From: Loxodes magnus
Lineage: Eukaryota; Ciliophora; Karyorelictea; Loxodida; Loxodidae
NCBI GenBank assembly: GCA_946699065.1
Contig: CAMPDV010000118.1
Span: 672,448-736,447, forward strand
DNA length: 64,000 nt
Direction of reading: 5' to 3'
Below are positions 1 through 63,284 of the stretch, piece by piece (within the stretch, counting starts at the first letter, position 1; the number at the start of each line of letters is the position of its first letter). The translations under genes were made by a program, and so were the position numbers. A model generated the notes under the pieces. That model was not told the DNA's origin and searched no databases. It worked only from the letters and a program-made list of their open reading frames with translations.

Positions 1-4670
<4,670 letters not shown>

Positions 4671-4856: not shown

Positions 4857-7800
4857 TCACCAACTTGTATTTTTTTCGATCCAGCCAGGCTTGTTATCAT
4901 GCTTAGTCCTATGTCTTCTTATGAGCATTTTTCTTACTTCATCATAAATTAGAATAAAAATGAAGAAAGGAAAAGCAGGGAGACAAAAATGTTCAAATTA
5001 TAAATCTCTCGTTCCAAGTCTTACTGCAATTTGTGGCTGATAACATATGAAAGCTGCTAGAACTATTTCAAAAATAATCCCTAGGTTAGCCATATTATTT
5101 TTCATTCCTTATTAAAAAAGACTCAACTTTCTAGTTTTAGCTACTAGCAAGCAACTAACTTAAACTACTACAATACTTACAAAAAAGGCACTCTGAGCAT
5201 GTCTTAATGCTTCTGTTGTATAGCAAATTGCATGACCTGAAACATACGAATCTCTATGAACTCTACATTATGACCATTCTTCATCAGCTCTATTTAAGTA
5301 CCATATTCTCAGGTCATATTTATTATCTGAATCAGTTATAAAATCTACAGTATCCTACTTAGAATCAAAATTTAGAGGGTCTTCATTAAATTTTTCCCAT
5401 GCTATAGAATTTCCTTTGAATCTATCTAGAGGATCATATAAATCAGTATGATGAGGTTTTATTCTTTTTTCTTTAACCATGAAAAATAAAGTAGAAGGAT
5501 AAAAGCCATAGTCATTCATTACTAAAAAGTAAGTATAAAATCCTGCACAAGCTTGGAATATTCCTATTTACATATAACTTCAATACATTAATCTTATATT
5601 AACAAGATGATCAGTAGCTGCATTTCTTGGCTTTCTTTACATAATATCAAGTTCAGAAGGCTCGTAAGCTAAAGAAATTGCAGGCCACATATTTGTTGTA
5701 ATATCAACACAAAGAATTAGAATAGTTGAAAGAGGTAAAGGAATTTAGCAGATAATGAATATAATGAAAGGGAAAAGTTCTGGAACATTGGAAGCTAATG
5801 TATACGCAATTGATTTCTTTAAGTTATCAAAAATAAGTCTTCCTTCTTCTATTCCTGCTACTATCGAAGTAAAATCATCATTTAATAGTAGCATATCTGC
5901 GGCATCTTTTGCAAAATCAGATCCTATTTTTCCCATAGCTATACCAATATCCGCTTTTTCTATCGCTGGAGAATCATTAACTACATCACTTGTTACTGCA
6001 ACTATATGTTTTAGTTTTTGACATCCTTCTACAATAATCAATTTCTGAGCAGGTGTCGTTCTAGCAAAGCTACATTCTTTTTTAAGAAGCCAACTTTCTA
6101 AAGCTTTTCCTCTTTCTTCTTCAGGTTTATTTTCATCTTTTCCACACTCTTTAGCCAGTTTATCTCCATGAATAATTACACATTCTGCTTCTTCAATTGC
6201 TTAATCTTCTAATCTTTCTCTTTCAACTGGATCGTTTATTTTAGTAATATCAATTCCTTTTTCTGCAAGTACATCGAAGTTTGTTTTTCCAGTAAGAATT
6301 CCAACATCTTTAGCAATCAATTCTGCTGTACCAGGTTAATCACCAGTGATCATAATAACTTTTATACCTATGGAACGGCACAAAGCAACAGCTTCAGGAA
6401 CTCCTTGACGAGGTGGGTCCACAAAAGAAATAAGCCCAGTGAAAATAAACTCATATCTACAAGCTTCAATTTCTAATTTTATTTCTTACATATCGAGTTC
6501 CTCAAAATTTACTCTTTGGCTAATACATATAAGCAAATCCTTAAGCTCTTTCTCCTCTTCTACCTAAGTATAAGTTAGTAGACTTAAAATCTTCTTCCCA
6601 ACTATTATCTTTAGGCATTTCTTTCTTATTTGCAAGAGCTTTAGTACAAAAAGACCATACTTTTTCAGGAATTCCTTTCAATAAAAATAAATAATCGTAA
6701 GGTCTAAATTTATCTTCAATAATAGTAAGTGCATATTTATGGCTTGATGAAAATGGAATTGCTGCAGGTTAACCTTCTGTATTTAAGGCTTTTGGATATT
6801 TTCTTCTCATTTCAAGAACATCTTAAATAGGTTAGAAAAATTTGACTAAAGCATTTTCTGAAGCATCAGAGTTTACTTTTCTCTCTTTCCATTTTTTAGA
6901 TTTCTCTTCTTATTCATATTATTAAGCTCTTTTAGCTTCTTCTTATTGTATCTTTTAATTATCATAATGTAAACGAGCTTTATCTTTTTCTGTTAATCCT
7001 TTTTCTGCTGGAATAGAGTAATCAAATTCTCCTTTATTATTTACTACTGCAATCACTTGTAACATTTAAAATGTTGGATTTTCTTCGTCGTATTCTGCCT
7101 TTTCGTTTTATTTTAGGTCTTCTTTTGTAACTGCTCTAATTGGATTTTTCTTATCATACCACATTGAACTTACAGACATTGTATTTTGAGTTAGAATTCC
7201 TGTTTTTTCCGAGCAAATACAAGTAGTGGAGCCTAATGTCTCCACTGATTCTAAATTTTTTACAAGTACTTGCTTTTTCGCCATTCTTTGAGCAGTAAGT
7301 GTAAGAGAGACTGCTACAGTTGCTATTAAACCTTATGGGACATTAGCTACAATAATTGCAATAGCAAATGTAAGGCAAGTAATAATAGGATAACCATAGA
7401 TAAAACTTAAAACGAAAAAAACTATACCATAACTTATAGCAACAGCACTAATCATTTTTATAAAACGATTTATTTCTCTATGAAGAGGAGTTTCTTCAGA
7501 ATGAGTACTTTATGCCTTATTAGCTATTTATCCAATGACTGTATTATCTCCTATATTTATTACTATTCCTCTACAGTATCCTTCTTTACAAAGTGTACCG
7601 AAAAATGCCAGGTTTTCAGTTTCAAGTGGATTTTCAGAAGTTTGCATGTGAGATCTTTTAAGAGCAAGATTTTCGCCTGTTAAAGAAGAGTTATCTACTT
7701 TCATTCCATGAACTTCAATCACACGAATATCCGCAGGAATTCTATCTCCTGGTCTTATTTCAACAACATCTCCTAACACAATTTTTGAAGCAGCTATTTA

Positions 7801-8613
7801 CTTCAAATTTCCCTCTCGAATAACTTAAGTTTATGGTGGTACAAAGTTTTTAAAGCTTGCCATAATAGAAGAAGATTTGTTCTCTTAATAAAAACTAAAT
7901 ATTCCAGTACCTAGCACAATAATGGCAATGACAACTCCTAGATATAAGTTAGTTGGATCAGAAGGATACAATCCATATCCAATAAAACAAAGTACACATC
8001 CAGTCCATAGTAATAAACTAGAGAATCCAGTTAATTACTTGAAAAGTAATACATACCATGGAGTTCTAGGCTTTTCAGTTATAGCATTATCTCCATCTCT
8101 CAGCAAACGCTCTTTTACCTATTAATATGTTAATCCTTAAGAAAAATCTTCAAGCCCAAGATCTTCTAAAAGCATTTCTAAAGGTATTTTGTGATCATCC
8201 ATATCTCTAAGCTTTTCATAAGCTTCTTTTCCCTTTTCTTTTTTATGTTTAACCTTGGCTTTAGGAATGTCTTTTTTTTCTTGAAGTTATTTCATTTGTT
8301 CTTAAGACTCTAATTACTACTTAAGCTTAGTAAATGTGCCAATAATATTGCTTGATTGATTTTTATCCAATTAAGGTGGTAAATCATAATCCGGAAGAGG
8401 CTGATACTCTTTCTCAAGACCTAATCCACTACTTAATCTTTTATTTAATCCAGGTTGAGCTTCTTAATCGGTAGTCTACTTATTAATAGTGCTAGATTGT
8501 TTTTTTTGCAAACCAGTAGAGGTTTCATTATCTTATACACCATAGGTCTATTTTTAGGCTTGCGAATCTAAAATATTCTAATTTGTATTTTGGTTAGTTT
8601 TCAGTTGTTCCAT
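4857..8613 (-). pseudogene. Type IIC (Na+/K+-like) P-type ATPase alpha subunit relic, unit A
   Basis: This reads as about 1250 residues against roughly 1020 in animal alpha subunits; the excess is a Gln-rich N-terminal extension and a charged insert in the nucleotide domain. Family landmarks in order are the M1-M2 region ending [113 protein letters not shown] and the tail YDEVRKMLIRRH...GWIEKNTSW. The phosphorylated Asp of DKTG is Glu (residue 469). Unit A has one extra base near 6500, shared with unit C, that shifts the frame, and all units share a TGA (5580-5582) before M7. A patch at about 7650-8160 differs from the other units. It is unlikely to make an active pump. Confidence 0.9.
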
Positions 8614-9940: not shown

Positions 9941-10396
9941 AATAATTGTAATTTATAATTTTGAAAGTTTCTCAGTTTAAAGCACTATTCTAGAAAATAG
10001 TTTGGTTCTATAGAACAATATTACTTATGGCTTAATAGCATTATATACAATAGCTTAATTTGATATATTATAAAAATAAGAAGCTAATTATAAAGCTAAC
10101 TATAAGATTTACTAATAAATAATTAGTTAATAGTGCTTTATGCTTATTATTAGTTTTCTTTTAAATAAAGAGATATATTTTTATAATTAAGCTAATACAC
10201 TGTAATCTTCTATTTAAGTTTCAATGTATTTCATTATTTATATTACTTTAACCTTGCTTTCTATATCTTCCATACTAGATTATTCAACTTACTGCTAAAA
10301 CCCTTTAGCTTAGAAAACAGTCAATTAAGATAGTTCAATAATGTAAATAAGGAAGGCTATATGTTTAAATCAAATTAAAAGCTTCTTCTTTTAAAA
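9941..10396. promoter_or_regulatory. Divergent intergenic region, MLF-like / MYND-RING, unit A
   Basis: These 456 bases separate two genes transcribed away from each other, so both promoters must lie here. It is highly AT-rich with no open frame of note. No specific TATA or factor site can be assigned with confidence because TATA-like strings are everywhere at this composition. Confidence 0.5.
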
Positions 10397-11569
10397 ATGC
10401 CAGATTGCTTAACTTGCAAGGCATCTGAGGCTATAATTAAATGCCATTTTTGTAATTAACTAAAATACTGCAGTGAGATTTGCAAAATAACAGATACAGC
10501 TCATCAAAGTGAGTGCAAATACAACAAAGGCAATTTACTTTCAATAATAAATCAAATTCAGTCTCTTACTCAGCAAGATTAATCTTCTGAAATAGAAAGT
10601 AAAGATGAAGAGTTCAACGACGAATTATCATAGAATGAAATAGATCATTATGGACTCAACTCTCTTAAACTATAACTACAAACTGCTGAAGAATAGCTTC
10701 ATAGGTATAAATCCTTATACCATAAGATTTTGGACTAAAACTTCCAATTTAAAAAGCAATTGGAATCATAGCAAGCTGAAATTAACAATAAGCATGACTT
10801 ATAAAAGTAACTAATAATGAAGAATGAAGAGATTTAAAGCCTTAAACTGTAGAGTAAAGAAATTTAGATCTTTAAAGGTGATCCCAATGTAATTAAAAAA
10901 CTTAGCTTAAATGAGCTATAGAATTATAGTTCTTAACTACTAAAATCTCTTACATAAATCTAGCAGATTTAATAAAGTAAACTATAAGAAGAGCAATAAA
11001 AATATTAGTAATTATAGACTCAATTATCTGATATTTATAAATGCATTATTTGTGTAAATAGAGATGTAGAAATTCTAGCAAAGCCATGCAATCATGCTTG
11101 CATGTGTGAATTTTGTGTTTTTAAAGTTGATTCATGCCCAATGTGTAGGAAAGCTATAATCTCCACTGAAAAGATATTTTTGCTTCGTTCTTAATTAGCT
11201 AATTTATTAAAGAATTAAGTTCTAGTTTGTATAATTTAAGTAATATGCTCATTATTTAGCAGCTTTATAGAAGTTAAATTGATTAGCTAGGCACAAAGTT
11301 ATTACTCTTAGTTATAATCTAAAATATAAAATTTCTAATATGCTTATTAATATATTATATAACGAGAGCATTTAGAAAAGATATAGTCTAATTACAGTAT
11401 AAAAATAGTTATTCACATTTAAGCAAATCTAATTAAGATATAGATAGTCAAATTTATAAACTAATCTTATAAAATATTAAAATAATACTAAATATAGCTA
11501 CTATTATTCAAACCTACTAGTTATATTAAGAAAAATAGATCTTCAGTTTCTTAAATAATAATTGGCTGA
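10397..11569 (+). CDS. MYND zinc finger - coiled coil - RING protein, likely E3 ubiquitin ligase, unit A
   Basis: The frame gives 390 residues from ATG to the first in-frame TGA. The N-terminal MYND finger has the full ligand set: Cys 4, 7, 16, 19, 25 and 29, His 36 and Cys 40, with YCSEIC at the core. A Gln/Glu/Leu-rich region from about residue 55 to 210 should form coiled coil. A C3HC4 RING begins at residue 216 (CIICVNRDVEILAKPCNHAC) and continues through CEFC to CPMCRKAI. RING domains recruit E2 enzymes; MYND usually binds Pro-rich peptides. The roughly 130 residues after the RING are low-complexity and may be untranslated or contain an unrecognised intron, since RINGs of this type usually lie at the very C-terminus. 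Confidence 0.8.
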
Positions 11570-14827: not shown

Positions 14828-15830
14828 AATCATTAAAATAACTGTTCGCCTTCCGGCTTAATTGAAGTTTTAAATGTATAAAATCTCCTTTCCTGCATGT
14901 TCGTTCCTTGTGCTCTTTTTCCTGGACTTCTCTCTTTTTAATTGAGCTAAGAATTTGTTTTTTCCAGATTTTCCCATTTCCCGATGGGAAGAATTCCGTC
15001 GCTCGCCATTTCAGTTGCTATTAGTTAATATTAATCCAAATATTCATCCTTATTCTTTTCTATTGGGGACATTTTTGCCATAGATGTCAAGTGCTGTTGC
15101 AAATATAACATCTTTTCCTTGCTCTCGGAAATATCTTTTCTTGTTTCTCTATTTCCATTGGAATTCCTTAAGAAGGCTTCTTTTCTTAATTTTAGTCTAG
15201 AATCTAATTTTACTCAGTTTTTCTCGTCTTGCATTACTCAAATTTCATTCTCTAAACTTGTCATTTGCTCATAAACTCCGGCTTTGCTCTTCGATCTACC
15301 ATATGGGCTTCATCATCATCTTCATGATTTATAAAATCCTGACTTAATACAAACATCTCTTCCTTCTGGGAGTTTAATTCCTCTTCGAGTTTTTTTATGT
15401 TTCTAATAAGTTGATGAATCAGCTGTTTCATCTACTCAGAGTTCATTTGTTCTATTTCAATGTTGTCTAAATCAAAGGTAATAGGATCTATATTGAATTA
15501 TCGTACTTTACCTTCTTCGTTTATTTCTTCGTTATCATTTTTATCGATTCAGTTGAGTGGTCTCTTTTTTCAGTTAATTGAGGCGTTGAGAGCTGTGGCA
15601 ACTTTTCTGTTCTGAATTTTTGTCTCAATTTCTGCTTGTGCTTTGATGGAAGAAGTCCGCTTTATTTTAATTTGTAGGAGTTAGTATTTTTTATTAGTTC
15701 TTCTAATTTATTAGATAGTTCTGGTTATTTTGATTAAGAAGAGCGTTAAGTTGAAGAAGACGTGGTGAGAATATGTGCTTCTGGTTTTCTCTCCTGTTCT
15801 GAGGTGGTAAAAAAAGGCTTCTTGAAGCCA
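14828..15830 (-). pseudogene. LINE ORF1 (gag-like, CCHC zinc knuckle), array block 1
   Basis: One minus-strand frame spans the whole block: a coiled coil (IEIEQMNSEQMKQLIHQL, then RNIKKLEEELNSQKEEM), an acidic stretch HEDDDEAHMVD, and a zinc knuckle RKRCYICNST-x-HLWQKC with exact C-x2-C-x4-H-x4-C spacing. It ends in a basic tail. Four TGAs interrupt this frame, one of them inside the knuckle directly before His. CCHC knuckles in LINE ORF1/gag proteins bind element RNA. The N-terminal third also has a Ser/Thr-rich open frame (TTSEQERKPEAHILTTSSS) in another phase, so the true start is uncertain. It is non-functional if TGA always terminates. Confidence 0.65.
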
Positions 15831-15855
15831 TTTATATTATATATTTATTTAAGAT

Positions 15856-16996
15856 ATGTAGTAATTTATAAATTAACAAGTTACTTCAAATTCCACTAAA
15901 ATAGCTACTCTCTTAAACGTGGAAAATAATTGTAGAGAATCTAAAAAAGCTTAGAAGTATGTCTATAGGTAAAAGAACCAGAATGTCACCAAAGACGCAT
16001 CAGAAATATCTAAAATATCCTCTAAAATGTTTGATACTTTAGATAATTAGAATATTTAGGATACTTAGGATACTTCTTTAATTAACGTTAAAGCGCAAAT
16101 CTAAATAGAATAGCAACTTAAGAGTTATTTTAGCACTATACTAAAAGGAAAAATTAGCAAAAGATAGTAAGTAGGATAATTCTTAGCAAATCCATACTGA
16201 AAATTAAGATATCAATACTAGAAAGTACTCGAAATGAAGAATGAATAAATATAAATGAATTTGCAAAATTTAAAATCCAAATACTAAAAAGGATAAAAGA
16301 GACTAAGCTTTTTAAAACTTAAGCTCTTAATTAAATTGAAGTATTTTACTTTTAAATTTATTAAAATTTACAAAAATTTACTTTAATTTGAGATTTACAA
16401 TTCAATAAACTTTATCACAGGGAAATACATACTTATTAAAAGATCCAAATGTAAACTTAGAAAGAAGTAGTTTAAGTTAATTCAAGCTTAAGCAAATATT
16501 GCAATACTAACTTAAAAAATCAAAAATCAAAAGCACTTATACATAAACAAATTTTCATTATGTTAAGACTTAAGAAACGTAAATTTAAATTTAATAAAGT
16601 GGTTCAATATCTCAGGCAACTGCTTAAACCTTTGAATCTTCCACAAATACTGAGTTAATAATCTTGGATTAATCAGTTTAATGTAACCTCGTTGATTAAA
16701 ATTATAAAAAATTGTAAAGTTCATATGATCAAATTAATAAACGATTTATCAATTAAGTAAAAGAATATGAAGCTGTACTTAAAGAAAATATTGAGACAGA
16801 AAAGAATCTAAGAAAAATGTAAGCTTTATATGAGTAAACATCTTCTAACTTAACAGATTTATCAGAAAAATTTTGTAAATAATCATTTTAAATTATCAAC
16901 AATTCTCATCCATAAACCTTAAACTAAGAAATACAAACAGATAATAAGAATGAAGAATACATTAACGATACAAAAAGAAAATGCCCAGACCCATGA
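15856..16996 (+). CDS. Gln-rich coiled-coil protein of unknown function, array spacer 1
   Basis: An ATG at 15856 opens MQQFINQQVTSNSTKIATLL and stays open for over 100 codons. A long in-phase frame later reads GNTYLLKDPNVNLERSSLSQ through VKEYEAVLKENIETEKNLRK to a TGA at 16994-16996. Two short AT-rich GT...AG introns would join the parts without any internal stop: 16171-16221 (51 nt) and 16341-16392 (52 nt), giving 345 residues. Alternative splice pairs (16167-16186 with 16341-16420) leave one TGA. The product is rich in Gln, Asn and Lys with a predicted coiled coil near the C-terminus. I do not recognise the family. It lies back to back with the preceding ORF1 block. Confidence 0.45.
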
Positions 16997-17374
16997 TATC
17001 CAATTCCTAAATAAAGTTTTGACAAGACAAAAGAAAATTAAAATATAATTGTAACAATGTAAAATCACAACATTTAAGGGAATTTATCATATCTAACATT
17101 TGGAGAAGAGTAAATTACTAGACTGTAATTTCAAATCGATATGTTGTGCTGGATTCAGAGCTAGTAAGAGGATAGATTGATAGTTAGATAGTTAAAATTA
17201 ATATAGACTAAGAACTCTTGAAACTATACAGCAGGTAATTTCTATATATTTTAATACAATTTTTTGATTAGCATCCAGAACATCATAAGATTATATCCAT
17301 GTGGAAATAAGAGAGTAAAAAAGAGTAATTGTCATTTTTGAATCTGGTCTTAAAGGAGAATCATAAAAAAATTA

Positions 17375-18377
17375 AATCATTAAAATAACTGTTCGCCTTC
17401 CGGCTTAATTGAAGTTTTAAATGTATAAAATCTCCTTTCCTGCATGTTCGTTCCTTGTGCTCTTTTTCCTGGACTTCTCTCTTTTTAATTGAGCTAAGAA
17501 TTTGTTTTTTCCAGATTTTCCCATTTCCCGATGGGAAGAATTCCGTCGCTCGCCATTTCAGTTGCTATTAGTTAATATTAATCCAAATATTCATCCTTAT
17601 TCTTTTCTATTGGGGACATTTTTGCCATAGATGTCAAGTGCTGTTGCAAATATAACATCTTTTCCTTGCTCTCGGAAATATCTTTTCTTGTTTCTCTATT
17701 TCCATTGGAATTCCTTAAGAAGGCTTCTTTTCTTAATTTTAGTCTAGAATCTAATTTTACTCAGTTTTTCTCGTCTTGCATTACTCAAATTTCATTCTCT
17801 AAACTTGTCATTTGCTCATAAACTCCGGCTTTGCTCTTCGATCTACCATATGGGCTTCATCATCATCTTCATGATTTATAAAATCCTGACTTAATACAAA
17901 CATCTCTTCCTTCTGGGAGTTTAATTCCTCTTCGAGTTTTTTTATGTTTCTAATAAGTTGATGAATCAGCTGTTTCATCTACTCAGAGTTCATTTGTTCT
18001 ATTTCAATGTTGTCTAAATCAAAGGTAATAGGATCTATATTGAATTATCGTACTTTACCTTCTTCGTTTATTTCTTCGTTATCATTTTTATCGATTCAGT
18101 TGAGTGGTCTCTTTTTTCAGTTAATTGAGGCGTTGAGAGCTGTGGCAACTTTTCTGTTCTGAATTTTTGTCTCAATTTCTGCTTGTGCTTTGATGGAAGA
18201 AGTCCGCTTTATTTTAATTTGTAGGAGTTAGTATTTTTTATTAGTTCTTCTAATTTATTAGATAGTTCTGGTTATTTTGATTAAGAAGAGCGTTAAGTTG
18301 AAGAAGACGTGGTGAGAATATGTGCTTCTGGTTTTCTCTCCTGTTCTGAGGTGGTAAAAAAAGGCTTCTTGAAGCCA
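17375..18377 (-). pseudogene. LINE ORF1 CCHC block, array block 2
   Basis: Second copy of the gag-like block with the coiled coil, the acidic stretch and the same CCHC knuckle containing a TGA. No difference from block 1 was noticed by eye. It begins at a junction reading AAATCATTAAAATAAC instead of AATCATTAAAATAAC, which marks the spacer/block seam. Confidence 0.65.
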
Positions 18378-18402
18378 TTTATATTATATATTTATTTAAG
18401 AT

Positions 18403-19543
18403 ATGTAGTAATTTATAAATTAACAAGTTACTTCAAATTCCACTAAAATAGCTACTCTCTTAAACGTGGAAAATAATTGTAGAGAATCTAAAAAAGCTTA
18501 GAAGTATGTCTATAGGTAAAAGAACCAGAATGTCACCAAAGACGCATCAGAAATATCTAAAATATCCTCTAAAATGTTTGATACTTTAGATAATTAGAAT
18601 ATTTAGGATACTTAGGATACTTCTTTAATTAACGTTAAAGCGCAAATCTAAATAGAATAGCAACTTAAGAGTTATTTTAGCACTATACTAAAAGGAAAAA
18701 TTAGCAAAAGATAGTAAGTAGGATAATTCTTAGCAAATCCATACTGAAAATTAAGATATCAATACTAGAAAGTACTCGAAATGAAGAATGAATAAATATA
18801 AATGAATTTGCAAAATTTAAAATCCAAATACTAAAAAGGATAAAAGAGACTAAGCTTTTTAAAACTTAAGCTCTTAATTAAATTGAAGTATTTTACTTTT
18901 AAATTTATTAAAATTTACAAAAATTTACTTTAATTTGAGATTTACAATTCAATAAACTTTATCACAGGGAAATACATACTTATTAAAAGATCCAAATGTA
19001 AACTTAGAAAGAAGTAGTTTAAGTTAATTCAAGCTTAAGCAAATATTGCAATACTAACTTAAAAAATCAAAAATCAAAAGCACTTATACATAAACAAATT
19101 TTCATTATGTTAAGACTTAAGAAACGTAAATTTAAATTTAATAAAGTGGTTCAATATCTCAGGCAACTGCTTAAACCTTTGAATCTTCCACAAATACTGA
19201 GTTAATAATCTTGGATTAATCAGTTTAATGTAACCTCGTTGATTAAAATTATAAAAAATTGTAAAGTTCATATGATCAAATTAATAAACGATTTATCAAT
19301 TAAGTAAAAGAATATGAAGCTGTACTTAAAGAAAATATTGAGACAGAAAAGAATCTAAGAAAAATGTAAGCTTTATATGAGTAAACATCTTCTAACTTAA
19401 CAGATTTATCAGAAAAATTTTGTAAATAATCATTTTAAATTATCAACAATTCTCATCCATAAACCTTAAACTAAGAAATACAAACAGATAATAAGAATGA
19501 AGAATACATTAACGATACAAAAAGAAAATGCCCAGACCCATGA
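18403..19543 (+). CDS. Gln-rich coiled-coil protein, array spacer 2
   Basis: Second copy of the spacer gene, with the same ATG context, candidate introns and TGA (19541-19543) shifted by 2547 bases. It appears identical to the copy in spacer 1. Coding is supported by residue composition in one phase only, not by any family match. Confidence 0.45.
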
Positions 19544-19921
19544 TATCCAATTCCTAAATAAAGTTTTGACAAGACAAAAGAAAATTAAAATATAATTGTA
19601 ACAATGTAAAATCACAACATTTAAGGGAATTTATCATATCTAACATTTGGAGAAGAGTAAATTACTAGACTGTAATTTCAAATCGATATGTTGTGCTGGA
19701 TTCAGAGCTAGTAAGAGGATAGATTGATAGTTAGATAGTTAAAATTAATATAGACTAAGAACTCTTGAAACTATACAGCAGGTAATTTCTATATATTTTA
19801 ATACAATTTTTTGATTAGCATCCAGAACATCATAAGATTATATCCATGTGGAAATAAGAGAGTAAAAAAGAGTAATTGTCATTTTTGAATCTGGTCTTAA
19901 AGGAGAATCATAAAAAAATTA

Positions 19922-20923
19922 AATCATTAAAATAACTGTTCGCCTTCCGGCTTAATTGAAGTTTTAAATGTATAAAATCTCCTTTCCTGCATGTTCGTTC
20001 CTTGTGCTCTTTTTCCTGGACTTCTCTCTTTTTAATTGAGCTAAGAATTTGTTTTTTCCAGATTTTCCCATTTCCCGATGGGAAGAATTCCGTCGCTCGC
20101 CATTTCAGTTGCTATTAGTTAATATTAATCCAAATATTCATCCTTATTCTTTTCTATTGGGGACATTTTTGCCATAGATGTCAAGTGCTGTTGCAAATAT
20201 AACATCTTTTCCTTGCTCTCGGAAATATCTTTTCTTGTTTCTCTATTTCCATTGGAATTCCTTAAGAAGGCTTCTTTTCTTAATTTTAGTCTAGAATCTA
20301 ATTTTACTCAGTTTTTCTCGTCTTGCATTACTCAAATTTCATTCTCTAAACTTGTCATTTGCTCATAAACTCCGGCTTTGCTCTTCGATCTACCATATGG
20401 CTTCATCATCATCTTCATGATTTATAAAATCCTGACTTAATACAAACATCTCTTCCTTCTGGGAGTTTAATTCCTCTTCGAGTTTTTTTATGTTTCTAAT
20501 AAGTTGATGAATCAGCTGTTTCATCTACTCAGAGTTCATTTGTTCTATTTCAATGTTGTCTAAATCAAAGGTAATAGGATCTATATTGAATTATCGTACT
20601 TTACCTTCTTCGTTTATTTCTTCGTTATCATTTTTATCGATTCAGTTGAGTGGTCTCTTTTTTCAGTTAATTGAGGCGTTGAGAGCTGTGGCAACTTTTC
20701 TGTTCTGAATTTTTGTCTCAATTTCTGCTTGTGCTTTGATGGAAGAAGTCCGCTTTATTTTAATTTGTAGGAGTTAGTATTTTTTATTAGTTCTTCTAAT
20801 TTATTAGATAGTTCTGGTTATTTTGATTAAGAAGAGCGTTAAGTTGAAGAAGACGTGGTGAGAATATGTGCTTCTGGTTTTCTCTCCTGTTCTGAGGTGG
20901 TAAAAAAAGGCTTCTTGAAGCCA
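19922..20923 (-). pseudogene. LINE ORF1 CCHC block, array block 3 (one-base deletion)
   Basis: This copy is one base shorter: the run of three G in CATATGGGCTTC is two G near 20400. On the minus strand this falls between the acidic stretch and the zinc knuckle and shifts the frame, so the knuckle is no longer in phase with the coiled coil. Confidence 0.65.
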
Positions 20924-20948
20924 TTTATATTATATATTTATTTAAGAT

Positions 20949-22089
20949 ATGTAGTAATTTATAAATTAACAAGTTACTTCAAATTCCACTAAAATAGCTA
21001 CTCTCTTAAACGTGGAAAATAATTGTAGAGAATCTAAAAAAGCTTAGAAGTATGTCTATAGGTAAAAGAACCAGAATGTCACCAAAGACGCATCAGAAAT
21101 ATCTAAAATATCCTCTAAAATGTTTGATACTTTAGATAATTAGAATATTTAGGATACTTAGGATACTTCTTTAATTAACGTTAAAGCGCAAATCTAAATA
21201 GAATAGCAACTTAAGAGTTATTTTAGCACTATACTAAAAGGAAAAATTAGCAAAAGATAGTAAGTAGGATAATTCTTAGCAAATCCATACTGAAAATTAA
21301 GATATCAATACTAGAAAGTACTCGAAATGAAGAATGAATAAATATAAATGAATTTGCAAAATTTAAAATCCAAATACTAAAAAGGATAAAAGAGACTAAG
21401 CTTTTTAAAACTTAAGCTCTTAATTAAATTGAAGTATTTTACTTTTAAATTTATTAAAATTTACAAAAATTTACTTTAATTTGAGATTTACAATTCAATA
21501 AACTTTATCACAGGGAAATACATACTTATTAAAAGATCCAAATGTAAACTTAGAAAGAAGTAGTTTAAGTTAATTCAAGCTTAAGCAAATATTGCAATAC
21601 TAACTTAAAAAATCAAAAATCAAAAGCACTTATACATAAACAAATTTTCATTATGTTAAGACTTAAGAAACGTAAATTTAAATTTAATAAAGTGGTTCAA
21701 TATCTCAGGCAACTGCTTAAACCTTTGAATCTTCCACAAATACTGAGTTAATAATCTTGGATTAATCAGTTTAATGTAACCTCGTTGATTAAAATTATAA
21801 AAAATTGTAAAGTTCATATGATCAAATTAATAAACGATTTATCAATTAAGTAAAAGAATATGAAGCTGTACTTAAAGAAAATATTGAGACAGAAAAGAAT
21901 CTAAGAAAAATGTAAGCTTTATATGAGTAAACATCTTCTAACTTAACAGATTTATCAGAAAAATTTTGTAAATAATCATTTTAAATTATCAACAATTCTC
22001 ATCCATAAACCTTAAACTAAGAAATACAAACAGATAATAAGAATGAAGAATACATTAACGATACAAAAAGAAAATGCCCAGACCCATGA
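20949..22089 (+). CDS. Gln-rich coiled-coil protein, array spacer 3
   Basis: Third copy of the spacer gene. The frame is as in spacers 1 and 2 up to the TGA at 22087-22089. The extra A of this period (run of five A near 22130) lies 3' of that stop and does not affect the predicted protein. Confidence 0.45.
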
Positions 22090-23471: not shown

Positions 23472-23496
23472 TTTATATTATATATTTATTTAAGAT

Positions 23497-29868: not shown

Positions 29869-32800
29869 TCACCAACTTGTATTTTTTTCGATCCAGCCAG
29901 GCTTGTTATCATGCTTAGTCCTATGTCTTCTTATGAGCATTTTTCTTACTTCATCATAAATTAGAATAAAAATGAAGAAAGGAAAAGCAGGGAGACAAAA
30001 ATGTTCAAATTATAAATCTCTCGTTCCAAGTCTTACTGCAATTTGTGGCTGATAACATATGAAAGCTGCTAGAACTATTTCAAAAATAATCCCTAGGTTA
30101 GCCATATTATTTTTCATTCCTTATTAAAAAAGACTCAACTTTCTAGTTTTAGCTACTAGCAAGCAACTAACTTAAACTACTACAATACTTACAAAAAAGG
30201 CACTCTGAGCATGTCTTAATGCTTCTGTTGTATAGCAAATTGCATGACCTGAAACATACGAATCTCTATGAACTCTACATTATGACCATTCTTCATCAGC
30301 TCTATTTAAGTACCATATTCTCAGGTCATATTTATTATCTGAATCAGTTATAAAATCTACAGTATCCTACTTAGAATCAAAATTTAGAGGGTCTTCATTA
30401 AATTTTTCCCATGCTATAGAATTTCCTTTGAATCTATCTAGAGGATCATATAAATCAGTATGATGAGGTTTTATTCCTTTTTCTTTAACCATGAAAAATA
30501 AAGTAGAAGGATAAAAGCCATAGTCATTCATTACTAAAAAGTAAGTATAAAATCCTGCACAAGCTTGGAATATTCCTATTTACATATAACTTCAATACAT
30601 TAATCTTATATTAACAAGATGATCAGTAGCTGCATTTCTTGGCTTTCTTTACATAATATCAAGTTCAGAAGGCTCGTAAGCTAAAGAAATGGCAGGCCAC
30701 ATATTTGTTATATCAACACAAAGAATTAGAATAGTTGTAAAAGGTAAAGGAATTTAGCAGATAATGAATATAATGAAAGGGAAAAGTTCTGGAACATTGG
30801 AAGCTAATGTATACGCAATTGATTTCTTTAAGTTATCAAAAATAAGTCTTCCTTCTTCTATTCCTGCTACTATCGAAGTAAAATCATCATTTAATAGTAA
30901 CATATCTGCGGCATCTTTTGCAAAATCAGATCCTATTTTTCCCATAGCTATACCAATATCCGCTTTTTCTATCGCTGGAGAATCATTAACTACATCACTT
31001 GTTACTGCAACTATATGTTTTAGTTTTTGACATCCTTCTACAATAATCAATTTCTGAGCAGGTGTCGTTCTAGCAAAGCTACATTCTTTTTTAAGAAGCC
31101 AACTTTCTAAAGCTTTTCCTCTTTCTTCTTCAGGTTTATTTTCATCTTTTCCACACTCTTTAGCCAGTTTATCTCCATGAATAATTACACATTCTGCTTC
31201 TTCAATTGCTTAATCTTCTAATCTTTCTCTTTCAACTGGATCGTTTATTTTAGTAATATCAATTCCTTTTTCTGCAAGTACATCGAAGTTTGTTTTTCCA
31301 GTAAGAATTCCAACATCTTTAGCAATCAATTCTGCTGTACCAGGTTAATCACCAGTGATCATAATAACTTTTATACCTATGGAACGGCACAAAGCAACAG
31401 CTTCAGGAACTCCTTGACGAGGTGGGTCCACAAAAGAAATAAGCCCAGTGAAAATAAACTCATATCTACAAGCTTCAATTTCTAATTTTATTTGATCCAT
31501 ATCGAGTTCCTAAAATTTACTCTTTGGCTAATACATATAAGCAAATCCTTAAGCTCTTTCTCCTCTTCTACCTAAGTATAAGTTAGTAGACTTAAAATCT
31601 TCTTCCCAACTAATATCTTTAGGCATTTCTTTCTTATTTGCAAGAGCTTTAGTACAAAAAGACCATACTTTTTCAGGAATTCCTTTCAATAAAAATAAAT
31701 AATCGTAAGGTCTAAATTTATCTTCAATAATAGTAAGTGCATATTTATGGCTTGATGAAAATGGAATTGCTGCAGGTTAACCTTCTGTATTTAAGGCTTT
31801 TGGATATTTTCTTCTCATTTCAAGAACATCTTAAATAGGTTAGAAAAATTTGACTAAAGCATTTTCTGAAGCATCAGAGTTTACTTTTCTCTCTTTCCAT
31901 TTTTTAGATTTCTCTTCTTATTCATATTATTAAGCTCTTTTAGCTTCTTCTTATTGTATCTTTTAATTATCATAATGTAAACGAGCTTTATCTTTTTCTG
32001 TTAATCCTTTTTCTGCTGGAATAGAGTAATCAAATTCTCCTTTATTATTTACTACTGCAATCACTTGTAACATTTAAAATGTTGGATTTTCTTCGTCGTA
32101 TTCTGCCTTTTCGTTTTATTTTAGGTCTTCTTTTGTAACTGCTCTAATTGGATTTTTCTTATCATACCACATTGAACTTACAGACATTGTATTTTGAGTT
32201 AGAATTCCTGTTTTTTCCGAGCAAATACAAGTAGTGGAGCCTAATGTCTCCACTGATTCTAAATTTTTTACAAGTACTTGCTTTTTCGCCATTCTTTGAG
32301 CAGTAAGTGTAAGAGAGACTGCTACAGTTGCTATTAAACCTTATGGGACATTAGCTACAATAATTGCAATAGCAAATGTAAGGCAAGTAATAATAGGATA
32401 ACCATAGATAAAACTTAAAACGAAAAAAACTATACCATAACTTATAGCAACAGCACTAATCATTTTTATAAAACGATTTATTTCTCTATGAAGAGGAGTT
32501 TCTTCAGAATGAGTACTTTATGCCTTATTAGCTATTTATCCAATGACTGTATTATCTCCTATATTTATTACTATTCCTCTACAGTATCCTTCTTTACAAA
32601 GTGTACCGAAAAATGCCAGGTTTTCAGTTTCAAGTGGATTTTCAGAAGTTTACATGTGAGATCTTTTAAGAGCAAGATTTTCGCCTGTTAACGAAGAATT
32701 ATCTACTTTCATATAACGAGCTTCAATCACACGAATATCCGCAGGAATTCTATCTCCTGGTCTTATTTCAACAACATCTCCTAACACAATTTTTGAGGTA

Positions 32801-33621
32801 GGTAATTAAATCATTCTACCCTCTCGAATAACTATAGCTTATGGTGGTACAAAGTTTTTAAAGCTTGCTACGTCAGAAGAAGATTTGCTCTCTTAATAAA
32901 AACTAAATATTCCAGTACCTAAAACAATAATGGCAATGACAACTCCTAGATATAAGTTAGTTGGATCAGAAGGAGACAATCCATATCCAATAAAACAAAG
33001 TACACATCCAGTCCATAGTAATAAACTAGAGAATCCAGTTAATTACTTGAAAAGTAATACATACCATGGAGTTCTAGGCTTTTCAGTTATAGCATTATCT
33101 CCATCTCTCAGCAAACGCTCTTTTACCTATTAAAATGTTAATCCTTATGAAAAATCTTCAAGTCCAAGATCTTCTAAAAGCATTTCTAAAGGTATTTTGT
33201 GATCATCCATATCTCTAAGCTTTTCATAAGCTTCTTTTCCCTTTTCTTTTTTATGTTTAACCTTGGCTTTAGGAATGTCTTTTTTTTCTTGAAGTTATTT
33301 CATTTGTTCTTAAGACTCTAATTACTACTTAAGCTTAGTAAATGTGCCAATAATATTGCTTGATTGATTTTTATCCAATTAAGGTGGTAAATCATAATCC
33401 GGAAGAGGCTGATACTCTTTCTCAAGACCTAATCCACTACTTAATCTTTTATTTAATCCAGGTTGAGCTTCTTAATCGGTAGTCTACTTATTAATAGTGC
33501 TAGATTGTTTTTTTTGCAAACCAGTAGAGGTTTCATTATCTTATACACCATAGGTCTATTTTTAGGCTTGCGAATCTAAAATATTCTAATTTGTATTTTG
33601 GTTAGTTTTCAGTTGTTCCAT
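29869..33621 (-). pseudogene. Type IIC P-type ATPase relic, unit B (no indel frameshift)
   Basis: This copy gives a continuous phase of 1251 codons from ATG (33619-33621) to TGA, broken only by a TGA at codon 1010 (30592-30594), just before M7. Changed functional residues are: Asp to Glu at the phosphorylation site and Thr to Ile three residues later (SEKTGILT, Glu 469); TGES to TGEN; TGDGVND to TSDVVND; M4 PEGL to PQGL (residue 427); and the second M6 Asp to Asn. A 3-base deletion relative to the other units makes M6 CVDITNMW instead of CVDITTNMW. The frame is intact where units A and C are shifted (near 31500). If made, it would be a truncated, catalytically dead protein. Confidence 0.9.
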
Positions 33622-44695: not shown

Positions 44696-47600
44696 TCACC
44701 AACTTGTATTTTTTTCGATCCAGCCAGGCTTGTTATCATGCTTAGTCCTATGTCTTCTTATGAGCATTTTTCTTACTTCATCATAAATTAGAATAAAAAT
44801 GAAGAAAGGAAAAGCAGGGAGACAAAAATGTTCAAATTATAAATCTCTCGTTCCAAGTCTTACTGCAATTTGTGGCTGATAACATATGAAAGCTGCTAGA
44901 ACTATTTCAAAAATAATCCCTAGGTTAGCCATATTATTTTTCATTCCTTATTAAAAAAGACTCAACTTTCTAGTTTTAGCTACTAGCAAGCAACTAACTT
45001 AAACTACTACAATACTTACAAAAAAGGCACTCTGAGCATGTCTTAATGCTTCTGTTGTATAGCAAATTGCATGACCTGAAACATACGAATCTCTATGAAC
45101 TCTACATTATGACCATTCTTCATCAGCTCTATTTAAGTACCATATTCTCAGGTCATATTTATTATCTGAATCAGTTATAAAATCTACAGTATCCTACTTA
45201 GAATCAAAATTTAGAGGGTCTTCATTAAATTTTTCCCATGCTATAGAATTTCCTTTGAATCTATCTAGAGGATCATATAAATCAGTATGATGAGGTTTTA
45301 TTCCTTTTTCTTTAACCATGAAAAATAAAGTAGAAGGATAAAAGCCATAGTCATTCATTACTAAAAAGTAAGTATAAAATCCTGCACAAGCTTGGAATAT
45401 TCCTATTTACATATAACTTCAATACATTAATCTTATATTAACAAGATGATCAGTAGCTGCATTTCTTGGCTTTCTTTACATAATATCAAGTTCAGAAGGC
45501 TCGTAAGCTAAAGAAATGGCAGGCCACATATTTGTTGTAATATCAACACAAAGAATTAGAATAGTTGAAAGAGGTAAAGGAATTTAGCAGATAATGAATA
45601 TAATGAAAGGGAAAAGTTCTGGAACATTGGAAGCTAATGTATACGCAATTGATTTCTTTAAGTTATCAAAAATAAGTCTTCCTTCTTCTATTCCTGCTAC
45701 TATCGAAGTAAAATCATCATTTAATAGTAGCATATCTGCGGCATCTTTTGCAAAATCAGATCCTATTTTTCCCATAGCTATACCAATATCCGCTTTTTCT
45801 ATCGCTGGAGAATCATTAACTACATCACTTGTTACTGCAACTATATGTTTTAGTTTTTGACATCCTTCTACAATAATCAATTTCTGAGCAGGTGTCGTTC
45901 TAGCAAAGCTACATTCTTTTTTAAGAAGCCAACTTTCTAAAGCTTTTCCTCTTTCTTCTTCAGGTTTATTTTCATCTTTTCCACACTCTTTAGCCAGTTT
46001 ATCTCCATGAATAATTACACATTCTGCTTCTTCAATTGCTTAATCTTCTAATCTTTCTCTTTCAACTGGATCGTTTATTTTAGTAATATCAATTCCTTTT
46101 TCTGCAAGTACATCGAAGTTTGTTTTTCCAGTAAGAATTCCAACATCTTTAGCAATCAATTCTGCTGTACCAGGTTAATCACCAGTGATCATAATAACTT
46201 TTATACCTATGGAACGGCACAAAGCAACAGCTTCAGGAACTCCTTGACGAGGTGGGTCCACAAAAGAAATAAGCCCAGTGAAAATAAACTCATATCTACA
46301 AGCTTCAATTTCTAATTTTATTTCTTACATATCGAGTTCCTCAAAATTTACTCTTTGGCTAATACATATAAGCAAATCCTTAAGCTCTTTCTCCTCTTCT
46401 ACCTAAGTATAAGTTAGTAGACTTAAAATCTTCTTCCCAACTATTATCTTTAGGCATTTCTTTCTTATTTGCAAGAGCTTTAGTACAAAAAGACCATACT
46501 TTTTCAGGAATTCCTTTCAATAAAAATAAATAATCGTAAGGTCTAAATTTATCTTCAATAATAGTAAGTGCATATTTATGGCTTGATGAAAATGGAATTG
46601 CTGCAGGTTAACCTTCTGTATTTAAGGCTTTTGGATATTTTCTTCTCATTTCAAGAACATCTTAAATAGGTTAGAAAAATTTGACTAAAGCATTTTCTGA
46701 AGCATCAGAGTTTACTTTTCTCTCTTTCCATTTTTTAGATTTCTCTTCTTATTCATATTATTAAGCTCTTTTAGCTTCTTCTTATTGTATCTTTTAATTA
46801 TCATAATGTAAACGAGCTTTATCTTTTTCTGTTAATCCTTTTTCTGCTGGAATAGAGTAATCAAATTCTCCTTTATTATTTACTACTGCAATCACTTGTA
46901 ACATTTAAAATGTTGGATTTTCTTCGTCGTATTCTGCCTTTTCGTTTTATTTTAGGTCTTCTTTTGTAACTGCTCTAATTGGATTTTTCTTATCATACCA
47001 CATTGAACTTACAGACATTGTATTTTGAGTTAGAATTCCTGTTTTTTCCGAGCAAATACAAGTAGTGGAGCCTAATGTCTCCACTGATTCTAAATTTTTT
47101 ACAAGTACTTGCTTTTTCGCCATTCTTTGAGCAGTAAGTGTAAGAGAGACTGCTACAGTTGCTATTAAACCTTATGGGACATTAGCTACAATAATTGCAA
47201 TAGCAAATGTAAGGCAAGTAATAATAGGATAACCATAGATAAAACTTAAAACGAAAAAAACTATACCATAACTTATAGCAACAGCACTAATCATTTTTAT
47301 AAAACGATTTATTTCTCTATGAAGAGGAGTTTCTTCAGATTGAGTACTTTATGCCTTATTAGCTATTTATCCAATGACTGTATTATCTCCTATATTTATT
47401 ACTATTCCTCTACAGTATCCTTCTTTACAAAGTGTACCGAAAAATGCCAGGTTTTCAGTTTCAAGTGGATTTTCAGAAGTTTACATGTGAGATCTTTTAA
47501 GAGCAAGATTTTCGCCTGTTAACGAAGAATTATCTACTTTCATATAACGAGCTTCAATCACACGAATATCCGCAGGAATTCTATCTCCTGGTCTTATTTC

Positions 47601-48452
47601 AACAACATCTCCTAACACAATTTTTGAGGTAGGTAATTAAATCATTCTACCCTCTCGAATAACTATAGCTTATGGTGGTACAAAGTTTTTAAAGCTTGCT
47701 ACGTCAGAAGAAGATTTGCTCTCTTAATAAAAACTAAATATTCCAGTACCTAAAACAATAATGGCAATGACAACTCCTAGATATAAGTTAGTTGGATCAG
47801 AAGGAGACAATCCATATCCAATAAAACAAAGTACACATCCAGTCCATAGTAATAAACTAGAGAATCCAGTTAATTACTTGAAAAGTAATACATACCATGG
47901 AGTTCTAGGCTTTTCAGTTATAGCATTATCTCCATCTCTCAGCAAACGCTCTTTTACCTATTAAAATGTTAATCCTTATGAAAAATCTTCAAGTCCAAGA
48001 TCTTCTAAAAGCATTTCTAAAGGTATTTTGTGATCATCCATATCTCTAAGCTTTTCATAAGCTTCTTTTCCCTTTTCTTTTTTATGTTTAACCTTGGCTT
48101 TAGGAATGTCTTTTTTTTCTTGAAGTTATTTCATTTGTTCTTAAGACTCTAATTACTACTTAAGCTTAGTAAATGTGCCAATAATATTGCTTGATTGATT
48201 TTTATCCAATTAAGGTGGTAAATCATAATCCGGAAGAGGCTGATACTCTTTCTCAAGACCTAATCCACTACTTAATCTTTTATTTAATCCAGGTTGAGCT
48301 TCTTAATCGGTAGTCTACTTATTAATAGTGCTAGATTGTTTTTTTTGCAAACCAGTAGAGGTTTCATTATCTTATACACCATAGGTCTATTTTTAGGCTT
48401 GCGAATCTAAAATATTCTAATTTGTATTTTGGTTAGTTTTCAGTTGTTCCAT
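44696..48452 (-). pseudogene. Type IIC P-type ATPase relic, unit C
   Basis: Same altered motifs as the other copies ([23 protein letters not shown]) and the shared TGA before M7. It also has the extra base near 46340 (CGAGTTCCTCAAAATTT instead of CGAGTTCCTAAAATTT), shared with unit A, which shifts the frame after QPKSKF in the P-domain region. Outside this site the N-terminal half follows the B/D sequence, including the region where unit A is diverged. Confidence 0.9.
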
Positions 48453-59524: not shown

Positions 59525-62500
59525 TCACCAACTTGTATTTTTTTCGATCCAGCCAGGCTTGTTATCATGCTTAGTCCTATGTCTTCTTATGAGCATTTTT
59601 CTTACTTCATCATAAATTAGAATAAAAATGAAGAAAGGAAAAGCAGGGAGACAAAAATGTTCAAATTATAAATCTCTCGTTCCAAGTCTTACTGCAATTT
59701 GTGGCTGATAACATATGAAAGCTGCTAGAACTATTTCAAAAATAATCCCTAGGTTAGCCATATTATTTTTCATTCCTTATTAAAAAAGACTCAACTTTCT
59801 AGTTTTAGCTACTAGCAAGCAACTAACTTAAACTACTACAATACTTACAAAAAAGGCACTCTGAGCATGTCTTAATGCTTCTGTTGTATAGCAAATTGCA
59901 TGACCTGAAACATACGAATCTCTATGAACTCTACATTATGACCATTCTTCATCAGCTCTATTTAAGTACCATATTCTCAGGTCATATTTATTATCTGAAT
60001 CAGTTATAAAATCTACAGTATCCTACTTAGAATCAAAATTTAGAGGGTCTTCATTAAATTTTTCCCATGCTATAGAATTTCCTTTGAATCTATCTAGAGG
60101 ATCATATAAATCAGTATGATGAGGTTTTATTCCTTTTTCTTTAACCATGAAAAATAAAGTAGAAGGATAAAAGCCATAGTCATTCATTACTAAAAAAGTA
60201 AGTATAAAATCCTGCACAAGCTTGGAATATTCCTATTTACATATAACTTCAATACATTAATCTTATATTAACAAGATGATCAGTAGCTGCATTTCTTGGC
60301 TTTCTTTACATAATATCAAGTTCAGAAGGCTCGTAAGCTAAAGAAATTGCAGGCCACATATTTGTTGTAATATCAACACAAAGAATTAGAATAGTTGAAA
60401 GAGGTAAAGGAATTTAGCAGATAATGAATATAATGAAAGGGAAAAGTTCTGGAACATTGGAAGCTAATGTATACGCAATTGATTTCTTTAAGTTATCAAA
60501 AAATAAGTCTTCCTTCTTCTATTCCTGCTACTATCGAAGTAAAATCATCATTTAATAGTAGCATATCTGCGGCATCTTTTGCAAAATCAGATCCTATTTT
60601 TCCCATAGCTATACCAATATCCGCTTTTTCTATCGCTGGAGAATCATTAACTACATCACTTGTTACTGCAACTATATGTTTTAGTTTTTGACATCCTTCT
60701 ACAATAATCAATTTCTGAGCAGGTGTCGTTCTAGCAAAGCTACATTCTTTTTTAAGAAGCCAACTTTCTAAAGCTTTTCCTCTTTCTTCTTCAGGTTTAT
60801 TTTCATCTTTTCCACACTCTTTAGCCAGTTTATCTCCATGAATAATTACACATTCTGCTTCTTCAATTGCTTAATCTTCTAATCTTTCTCTTTCAACTGG
60901 ATCGTTTATTTTAGTAATATCAATTCCTTTTTCTGCAAGTACATCGAAGTTTGTTTTTCCAGTAAGAATTCCAACATCTTTAGCAATCAATTCTGCTGTA
61001 CCAGGTTAATCACCAGTGATCATAATAACTTTTATACCTATGGAACGGCACAAAGCAACAGCTTCAGGAACTCCTTGACGAGGTGGGTCCACAAAAGAAA
61101 TAAGCCCAGTGAAAATAAACTCATATCTACAAGCTTCAATTTCTAATTTTATTTGATCCATATCGAGTTCCTAAAATTTACTCTTTGGCTAATACATATA
61201 AGCAAATCCTTAAGCTCTTTCTCCTCTTCTACCTAAGTATAAGTTAGTAGACTTAAAATCTTCTTCCCAACTATTATCTTTAGGCATTTCTTTCTTATTT
61301 GCAAGAGCTTTAGTACAAAAAGACCATACTTTTTCAGGAATTCCTTTCAATAAAAATAAATAATCGTAAGGTCTAAATTTATCTTCAATAATAGTAAGTG
61401 CATATTTATGGCTTGATGAAAATGGAATTGCTGCAGGTTAACCTTCTGTATTTAAGGCTTTTGGATATTTTCTTCTCATTTCAAGAACATCTTAAATAGG
61501 TTAGAAAAATTTGACTAAAGCATTTTCTGAAGCATCAGAGTTTACTTTTCTCTCTTTCCATTTTTTAGATTTCTCTTCTTATTCATATTATTAAGCTCTT
61601 TTAGCTTCTTCTTATTGTATCTTTTAATTATCATAATGTAAACGAGCTTTATCTTTTTCTGTTAATCCTTTTTCTGCTGGAATAGAGTAATCAAATTCTC
61701 CTTTATTATTTACTACTGCAATCACTTGTAACATTTAAAATGTTGGATTTTCTTCGTCATATTCTGCCTTTTCGTTTTATTTTAGGTCTTCTTTTGTAAC
61801 TGCTCTAATTGGATTTTTCTTATCATACCACATTGAACTTACAGACATTGTATTTTGAGTTAGAATTCCTGTTTTTTTCCGAGCAAATACAAGTAGTGGA
61901 GCCTAATGTCTCCACTGATTCTAAATTTTTTACAAGTACTTGCTTTTTCGCCATTCTTTGAGCAGTAAGTGTAAGAGAGACTGCTACAGTTGCTATTAAA
62001 CCTTATGGGACATTAGCTACAATAATTGCAATAGCAAATGTAAGGCAAGTAATAATAGGATAACCATAGATAAAACTTAAAACGAAAAAAACTATACCAT
62101 AACTTATAGCAACAGCACTAATCATTTTTATAAAACGATTTATTTCTCTATGAAGAGGAGTTTCTTCAGATTGAGTACTTTATGCCTTATTAGCTATTTA
62201 TCCAATGACTGTATTATCTCCTATATTTATTACTATTCCTCTACAGTATCCTTCTTTACAAAGTGTACCGAAAAATGCCAGGTTTTCAGTTTCAAGTGGA
62301 TTTTCAGAAGTTTACATGTGAGATCTTTTAAGAGCAAGATTTTCGCCTGTTAACGAAGAATTATCTACTTTCATATAACGAGCTTCAATCACACGAATAT
62401 CCGCAGGAATTCTAGTCTCCTGGTCTTATTTCAACAACATCTCCTAACACAATTTTTGAGGTAGGTAATTAAATCATTCTACCCTCTCGAATAACTATAG

Positions 62501-63284
62501 CTTATGGTGGTACAAAGTTTTTAAAGCTTGCTACGTCAGAAGAAGATTTGCTCTCTTAATAAAAACTAAATATTCCAGTACCTAAAACAATAATGGCAAT
62601 GACAACTCCTAGATATAAGTTAGTTGGATCAGAAGGAGACAATCCATATCCAATAAAACAAAGTACACATCCAGTCCATAGTAATAAACTAGAGAATCCA
62701 GTTAATTACTTGAAAAGTAATACATACCATGGAGTTCTAGGCTTTTCAGTTATAGCATTATCTCCATCTCTCAGCAAACGCTCTTTTACCTATTAAAATG
62801 TTAATCCTTATGAAAAATCTTCAAGTCCAAGATCTTCTAAAAGCATTTCTAAAGGTATTTTGTGATCATCCATATCTCTAAGCTTTTCATAAGCTTCTTT
62901 TCCCTTTTCTTTTTTATGTTTAACCTTGGCTTTAGGAATGTCTTTTTTTTCTTGAAGTTATTTCATTTGTTCTTAAGACTCTAATTACTACTTAAGCTTA
63001 GTAAATGTGCCAATAATATTGCTTGATTGATTTTTATCCAATTAAGGTGGTAAATCATAATCCGGAAGAGGCTGATACTCTTTCTCAAGACCTAATCCAC
63101 TACTTAATCTTTTATTTAATCCAGGTTGAGCTTCTTAATCGGTAGTCTACTTATTAATAGTGCTAGATTGTTTTTTTTGCAAACCAGTAGAGGTTTCATT
63201 ATCTTATACACCATAGGTCTATTTTTAGGCTTGCGAATCTAAAATATTCTAATTTGTATTTTGGTTAGTTTTCAGTTGTTCCAT
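59525..63284 (-). pseudogene. Type IIC P-type ATPase relic with four extra bases, unit D
   Basis: Same altered motifs and the shared TGA before M7. The A/C frameshift is absent. Four single-base insertions break the frame: an extra A near 60190, an extra A near 60500, an extra T near 61870 beside the SEKTG codons, and an extra G near 62415 (TTCTAGTCTCC for TTCTATCTCC). Three are in homopolymers and one is not. The length of 3760 bases equals the unit B length plus the 3-base codon and these four insertions. Confidence 0.88.

Follow-up and report, generated by a model that had tools for sequence, protein, structure and literature searches.

The analysed window is a 64,000-nucleotide stretch of Loxodes magnus DNA (contig C118, positions 672448-736447), and its right end is the end of the contig. 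Its minus strand carries a type IIC P-type ATPase gene four times, in repeated units of about 14.8 kb: copy 1 (4857..8613, beginning with the first Met, at codon 28 of the stop-to-stop frame, and ending with the terminal TGA), copy 2 (29869..33621), copy 3 (44696..48452) and copy 4 (59525..63284), the last of which is near the end of the contig. Identity to copy 2 over the ORF is 98.6% for copy 1 and 99.6% for each of copies 3 and 4. Copy 2 is the only window copy open throughout; the frames of copies 1 and 3 are broken by a +1 shift at codon 731, and copy 4 has four single-base insertions, three of them inside homopolymer runs.

Composition of the array and its genetic code

The spacing between copies 1 and 2 is 25.0 kb, and here a 2547-bp sequence is expanded: it is repeated five times in tandem between them (14828-25793) and is present once in each of the next two units; two ORFs tested in this region (16392-17180 and 21485-22315) had no Pfam match. 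The repeated unit also carries, on the plus strand, a RING-finger gene (10385-11204; PF13920, E 8.1e-10) and, about 1 kb from the ATPase gene, the remnant of a reverse transcriptase (2901-4001; PF00078, E 1.6e-20). The window opens with about 1.5 kb of pure (TAA)n (1-1548), one frame of which is poly-Gln in this code.

At lower positions of contig C118 the same strand carries, in ascending order, an intact pump gene at 641k and a variant at 661k; the window copies, all four, come after these and take the series to the end of the contig. Contigs C839, C2042 and C3623 have a pump-type gene as well, oriented there opposite to the window-type copies; that of C839 (10k) is open in one frame, and those of C2042 and C3623 (both at 7k) are broken in the assembly.

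The window DNA is of the AT-rich ciliate type, with TAA and TAG read as Gln. Karyorelicts are described as using NCBI table 27, in which UGA is the sole stop and is also translated as Trp when it lies far enough 5' of the poly-A tail (PMC11441545). Since TAA and TAG, and TGA inside a gene, all encode amino acids, a decaying copy can hardly acquire a nonsense codon except near its 3' end, and an open frame in these pump copies is therefore not informative. A germline-limited origin of the DNA was considered and set aside: the genome searched (705,730,643 bases in 7843 contigs) fits the macronuclear assembly reported as 706 Mbp, and the title of that paper speaks of nuclear dualism without extensive DNA elimination (PMC11441545).

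An in-frame TGA occurs at codon 1037, in M7 (30592..30594, minus strand, in copy 2). In the DNA alignment it is found in all 24 family loci examined, pumps included, so that we read it as a conserved Trp codon and reject it as a premature stop indicating decay; the frame-based table lists it in 22 of the 24, copy 4 and C2042:7k lacking it there because a shifted frame supplied their codons. Reading TGA as Trp gives copy 2 an uninterrupted frame of 1277 codons from stop to stop, and its long translation scores 1004.6 bits against TIGR01106 (Na,K / H,K-ATPase alpha, P2C), above the curated cut-off of 946.1; a translation cut at the TGA falls below it (864.7 bits). Five Pfam matches were obtained, the N, A, P and M domains and M7-M10 are present, and Cation_ATPase_C is matched over its full length (1-175 of 175). 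Identity to a solved Na,K-ATPase alpha chain is 51% over the aligned part, and the C-terminus ends as is usual in the Na,K / H,K-ATPase alpha family. By sequence, then, the window copies are type IIC P-type ATPases. They differ from the family in five respects: the catalytic Asp is Glu, the second Thr of DKTGT is Ile, TGDGVND reads TSDVVND, the M4 Glu is Gln and the second M6 Asp is Asn.

The 24 loci comprised the four window copies, 15 loci of one 20-locus set (L014, L021, L026, L030 and L033 of this set had no match and were left out) and five further genome matches; later comparisons used subsets of them. The counts of the genome search are lower bounds, as the best 44 of 290 candidates were scored and at least 56 matches exist; matches on contigs C1 and C193 (30-42% identity) were left out of the analysis, as were five distant prokaryotic loci in a collection of genome contigs (L001-L005) and P-type ATPases of less than 60% identity in at least 5000 plasmid records. 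Viral contigs contained no relatives, and the Rfam search gave no match.

Catalytic codon and motif states in the family

The position of the phosphorylated Asp (codon 496, which is Glu 469 counted from the Met at codon 28) is occupied by GAA in all four window copies: at 7207..7209 in copy 1, where the Glu stands in an 11-residue context, at 32215..32217 in copy 2, at 47046..47048 in copy 3 and at 61877..61879 in copy 4, in each case on the minus strand. In copy 4 an extra A follows in the adjoining run. This insertion shifts the frame, and the Lys apparent at the catalytic site of copy 4 and of three copies on C2042 and C3643 was rejected for this reason, the codon being GAA there too.

Alignment with the other type IIC genes of the organism, which the earlier note had proposed, confined GAA to the window type: it is present in 12 of the 12 examined window-type loci (at least 12 exist), on contigs C118, C2042, C3623, C3643 and C839, and GAT or GAC is present in 12 of the 12 other type IIC loci examined (again at least 12). 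These are assembled loci and not independent genes, as the near-identical pairs L018/L019, L023/L024 and L028/L029 may be haplotypes or overlapping contigs. All 12 window-type loci thus lack the phosphorylated Asp of DKTGT, and alongside the Glu the window type has Ile for Thr at codon 500 and TSDVVND in place of the TGDGxND of the P domain. We conclude that the Asp-to-Glu change is real and probably of single origin. The emphasis that the earlier note had laid on all four copies is correct as to the codon; however, being near-identical members of one tandem array, the copies record one ancestral state and one event rather than four.

The motif residues considered here belong to the ion sites and the catalytic centre of P-type ATPases. 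The changes reported in the earlier note, namely TSDVVND, PQGL in M4 and an Asn in place of the second Asp of M6, are all present, but they are not of one kind, and TGEN has to be struck from its list. TGEN occurs in 11 of the 12 non-window-type IIC loci, intact pumps included (the remaining one, C118:386k, has TGEM), and on this distribution it is the normal state in Loxodes magnus and no lesion. The M4 Gln (a TAA codon) and the M6 Asn (TNM) are shared with C118:661k and C3643:18k, both of which keep DKTGT and TGDGVND. These two changes are therefore not tied to the loss of the Asp, with which they had been grouped; they probably preceded it or were spread by conversion. The same two loci (L022 and L025) also have KGTPQ and FFRVTP.

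In type IIC pumps Glu is not known to take the place of the phosphorylated Asp. A literature search for mutants of this kind yielded one relevant case, the engineered yeast Pma1 D378E, which has the same change at the phosphorylation site and appears in a list of dominant lethal alleles, described there as a misfolded, ER-retained class (PMC3692421). This case differs from the window type in being a single change in a plasma-membrane proton pump. Among the papers listed in searches for a natural P-type pseudoenzyme none was a matching case, by which the absence of such cases is not proved. Among alveolates, the P4-ATPase domain of Plasmodium falciparum GC-beta is comparable as a P-type ATPase domain with losses, and it is described as having lost most signature residues (PMC6592433); that domain is fused to a guanylate cyclase, whereas the window-type gene is as a whole a pump copy.

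Mosaic tracts, frameshifts and selection

Copy 2 differs from C118:661k by 0-1% per 50-codon bin over codons 1-250 and 1001-1277 and by up to 19% between them. Copy 1 remains within 0-2% of C118:661k as far as about codon 350, a point at which copy 2 differs by 12%, and it has a recombination-like tract at codons 180-351 (7644..8157, minus strand) in which its bases match the 661k type. A junction of window-type and 661k-type sequence lies at 6485..6503 (minus strand), where the +1 at codon 731 is accompanied by 661k-type bases at codons 736-737; copy 3, C2042:46k and C3623:44k have the same combination. Since the +1 is linked to these bases and reads as two T runs joined in different phase, we take it as real, or else as an assembly chimera. 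In addition, bases of a 641k-like and of an 839:10k-like type occur together in the window core.

Most other frameshifts are single-base indels in homopolymer runs, confined to one or a few copies. In some copies indels outnumber substitutions (gap openings to mismatches are 12 to 7 in C3623:14k and 5 to 1 in C3623:30k), and we did not rely on most copy-specific frameshifts as biology; the homopolymer indels of the window copies and of those on C2042, C3623 and C3643 probably reflect a poorly polished repeat consensus, and gene models across them will break. A disabling lesion in every copy was not found, as copy 2 is open, although it lacks one codon in the ion-site loop of M6. Nor is any frame-breaking indel common to all 11 window-type copies aligned (C839:3k lay outside the alignment).

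The number of indels that could be expected can be estimated from about 6 kb of the array units outside the ATPase gene, the RING gene included. Indels to substitutions are 1 to 5 between units 1 and 2, 10 to 23 between units 1 and 3 and 9 to 20 between units 2 and 3, and the indels outside homopolymers number 1, 3 and 2, respectively. At 0.1-0.2 indels per substitution, about 4-9 indels would thus be expected beside the 45 substitutions of the core. This leaves two alternatives: an ancestor that was still being held open, or a frame preserved by conversion with open donors.

Selection was assessed over codons 250-1040, on the bases that a window copy has and that none of six reference genes (661k and five pumps) shares. 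Copy 2 has 45 such unique substitutions in the 2373-nt core (1.9%), of which 39 are nonsynonymous and 6 synonymous (39N:6S); random placement of the same changes gives about 34:11 (34.2 N). The ratio of nonsynonymous to synonymous change, called for in the earlier note, is accordingly about 2 and not below 1: omega is about 2.06 for copy 2 (P(N<=obs) 0.98) and 2.48 for copy 3, with P values for the N excess of 0.048 and 0.02. Without the cluster of changes at codons 270-331 the omegas are 1.71 and 2.12 (P 0.16 and 0.09), and for codons 352-1040 they are 1.74 and 2.13 (P 0.14 and 0.08). With the references enlarged by C3643:18k, C5 and C118:386k, the count becomes 34N:5S.

Three of the five pumps were run as controls over codons 250-1040, and their omegas are 0.26-0.31: the intact pump C118:641k of the same cluster has 27N:37S (0.31), C525:61k has 104N:143S (0.26) and C839:10k has 7N:7S (0.30). 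The window type departs strongly from the first of these (Fisher P=2.9e-6), and a signature of purifying selection, present in the controls, is lost in it. This relaxed ratio is read directly from the aligned sequences, as are the motif states and their distribution, the array and the mosaic tracts. The window type also changes reference-invariant residues at about the chance rate (19 of 36 changed codons, or 0.53, against a neutral 0.62, sd 0.08; P 0.12); C118:641k (8 of 24) and C525:61k (40 of 87) are both depleted in such changes, and the 4 of 5 in C839:10k are too few to tell.

Motif residues are changed five times in the window type against about 2.1 expected, with P of 0.057 for copy 2 and 0.065 for copy 3 over codons 250-1040 and of 0.022-0.034 in two sub-ranges (0.026 for copy 2 over codons 352-1040); the three control pumps have 0, 0 and 2 such changes. 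The list of 50 motif residues behind these counts was compiled on general grounds once the window sequence was known. The clustering at catalytic motifs is marginal, and the clustering at catalytic and ion sites asserted in the earlier note holds to this extent only. The good preservation of fold-defining sequence that it described is due mainly to recency, given the 1.9% of unique substitutions and the near-neutral rate at invariant sites. Taken together, the N excess and the motif changes lean slightly to positive selection.

The ion-site variant 661k is not clearly under constraint by its own N:S (27N:11S, omega 0.72); of its 23 changed codons, 19 lie at invariant residues, and it has four motif changes. 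C118:661k and C3643:18k differ from each other by 6N:8S, which is why constraint may still act on this paralogue in the form of an ion-site variant.

Probable loss of constraint and competing readings

We consider it probable that the window holds a young, recombining tandem array of Na,K-ATPase-like pump copies which has lost selective constraint. These copies resemble recently formed pseudogenes, their decay masked by a code nearly without internal stops. The earlier note had offered a pseudoenzyme lineage or an old pseudogene; the loss of the catalytic residues stands, but the 45 changes in 2373 nt, at 39N:6S, favour a recent loss of constraint over an old one. The array resembles an ordinary set of duplicated pseudogenes or relaxed paralogues under gene conversion in its near-identical tandem copies, in an omega not below 1, in its mosaic tracts and in the frameshift of copies 1 and 3, and it differs from such a set in that nonsense codons cannot accumulate except near the 3' end.

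How the array came about, and its loss of function, may be inferred as follows. A working pump gene would have been duplicated, its C118:641k and C839:10k types surviving in the same clusters. One branch would first have lost two ion-site carboxylates (PEGL to PQGL and M6 Asp to Asn, both seen in C118:661k). In the window type, GAT of the phosphorylated Asp would then have become GAA, Ile would have replaced the second Thr of DKTGT, and two of the glycines in TGDGVND would have gone. Subsequently, the Asp-less copy would have multiplied, in repeat units of about 14.8 kb, into descendants that exchanged segments with the 661k type, one exchange joining T runs out of phase and giving the frameshift of copies 1 and 3. 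Decay of this kind would leave no nonsense codons, so that a dead copy could still look open. If translated, the window-type protein would be expected to form no aspartyl-phosphate and not to pump.

Given that the 11 aligned copies share no frameshift, and given the slight N excess, there is still room for a selected pseudo-pump, in which copy 2 and its kin would be translated as a full-length, pump-dead alpha subunit selected for a non-transport role (for example as a decoy or assembly partner, a scaffold or a regulator of active pumps), the changes themselves being driven by selection (omega at or above 1). The open, full-length frame of copy 2, its family-type C-terminus and its score above the IIC cut-off are in line with such a role, as are the N excess in both copies and the surplus of motif changes. 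Both signals are marginal, however, and the first weakens to P 0.08-0.16 without one cluster; invariant residues are changed at nearly the neutral rate, the open copy 2 lacks an M6 codon, and copies 1 and 3 have a frameshift that looks real. An expressed copy would also be expected to do harm, to judge from the dominant lethality listed for Pma1 D378E (PMC3692421). We therefore regard a selected pseudoenzyme lineage as unlikely. That the window type encodes a full-length, pump-dead Na,K-ATPase alpha subunit, tandem-amplified beside intact pumps and changed by positive selection, i.e., a true P2C pseudo-pump which perhaps competes for partner subunits or tunes active pumps, seems to us distinctly unlikely as well; if true, it would offer a natural test of the pump-independent roles of P2C alpha subunits.

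Dead copies might also serve as, or be shaped as, gene conversion cassettes that diversify the neighbouring pump genes. The 661k-type segments in copies 1 and 3, C2042:46k and C3623:44k, the mixed bases of the window core and the presence of arrays and pump-type genes on the same contigs would suit such a donor reservoir, but the tracts detected run into window-type copies, none into an intact pump (in a non-systematic search), and ordinary concerted evolution accounts for them. We consider this role quite improbable.

A consensus error in a badly polished repeat is a very improbable source of the Glu codon. The array does contain many 1-nt homopolymer indels, the catalytic codon borders an A run, and the read mappings are reported to have passed a samtools view -q 20 filter ahead of polishing (PMC11441545), so that repeats may have remained unpolished. 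The same T-to-A change nevertheless recurs in all 12 examined loci (at least 12 exist), which lie on five contigs, and each time the Ile codon at 500 and AGT/GTA at 902/904 accompany it; the copy-to-copy noise consists mostly of indels and not of linked substitutions. An active pump in which Glu takes the phosphate, or whose cycle runs otherwise, is hardly credible, since the open frame is all that speaks for it and the two altered TGDGVND glycines, the changed second Thr of DKTGT, an omega not below 1 and the lethality listed for Pma1 D378E (PMC3692421) stand against it.

Under the preferred reading, a recent loss of constraint in a recombining array, the loss of the Asp is ordinary as evolution and is instructive since the genetic code conceals the signs by which decay is normally recognised. 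The locus keeps a series of steps, from the intact pump through an ion-site variant with a normal P domain to the Asp-less form, with recombination active, and this series makes it a usable natural system for the loss of constraint in tandem pump copies. Its main lesson is one of caution: where TGA, TAA and TAG are sense codons inside genes, long open frames are no proof of function, and decayed genes in a code of the table-27 type may be annotated as intact proteins.

Two further paralogues may be mentioned. C525:61k and C525:69k (L018 and L019) stand in inverted orientation to each other and represent a IIC pump that is under constraint (omega about 0.26) and has an unusual M5/M6, with TANIPE and AICV...TDM; it is without the first M6 Asp and possibly has an altered ion specificity. 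C118:386k (L032), about 250 kb from the 641k pump on the same contig, is a degenerate IIC copy with LDKTGF and GEGIKD, the frame of which is open over codons 126-1277 and contains seven in-frame TGA codons over the matched part.
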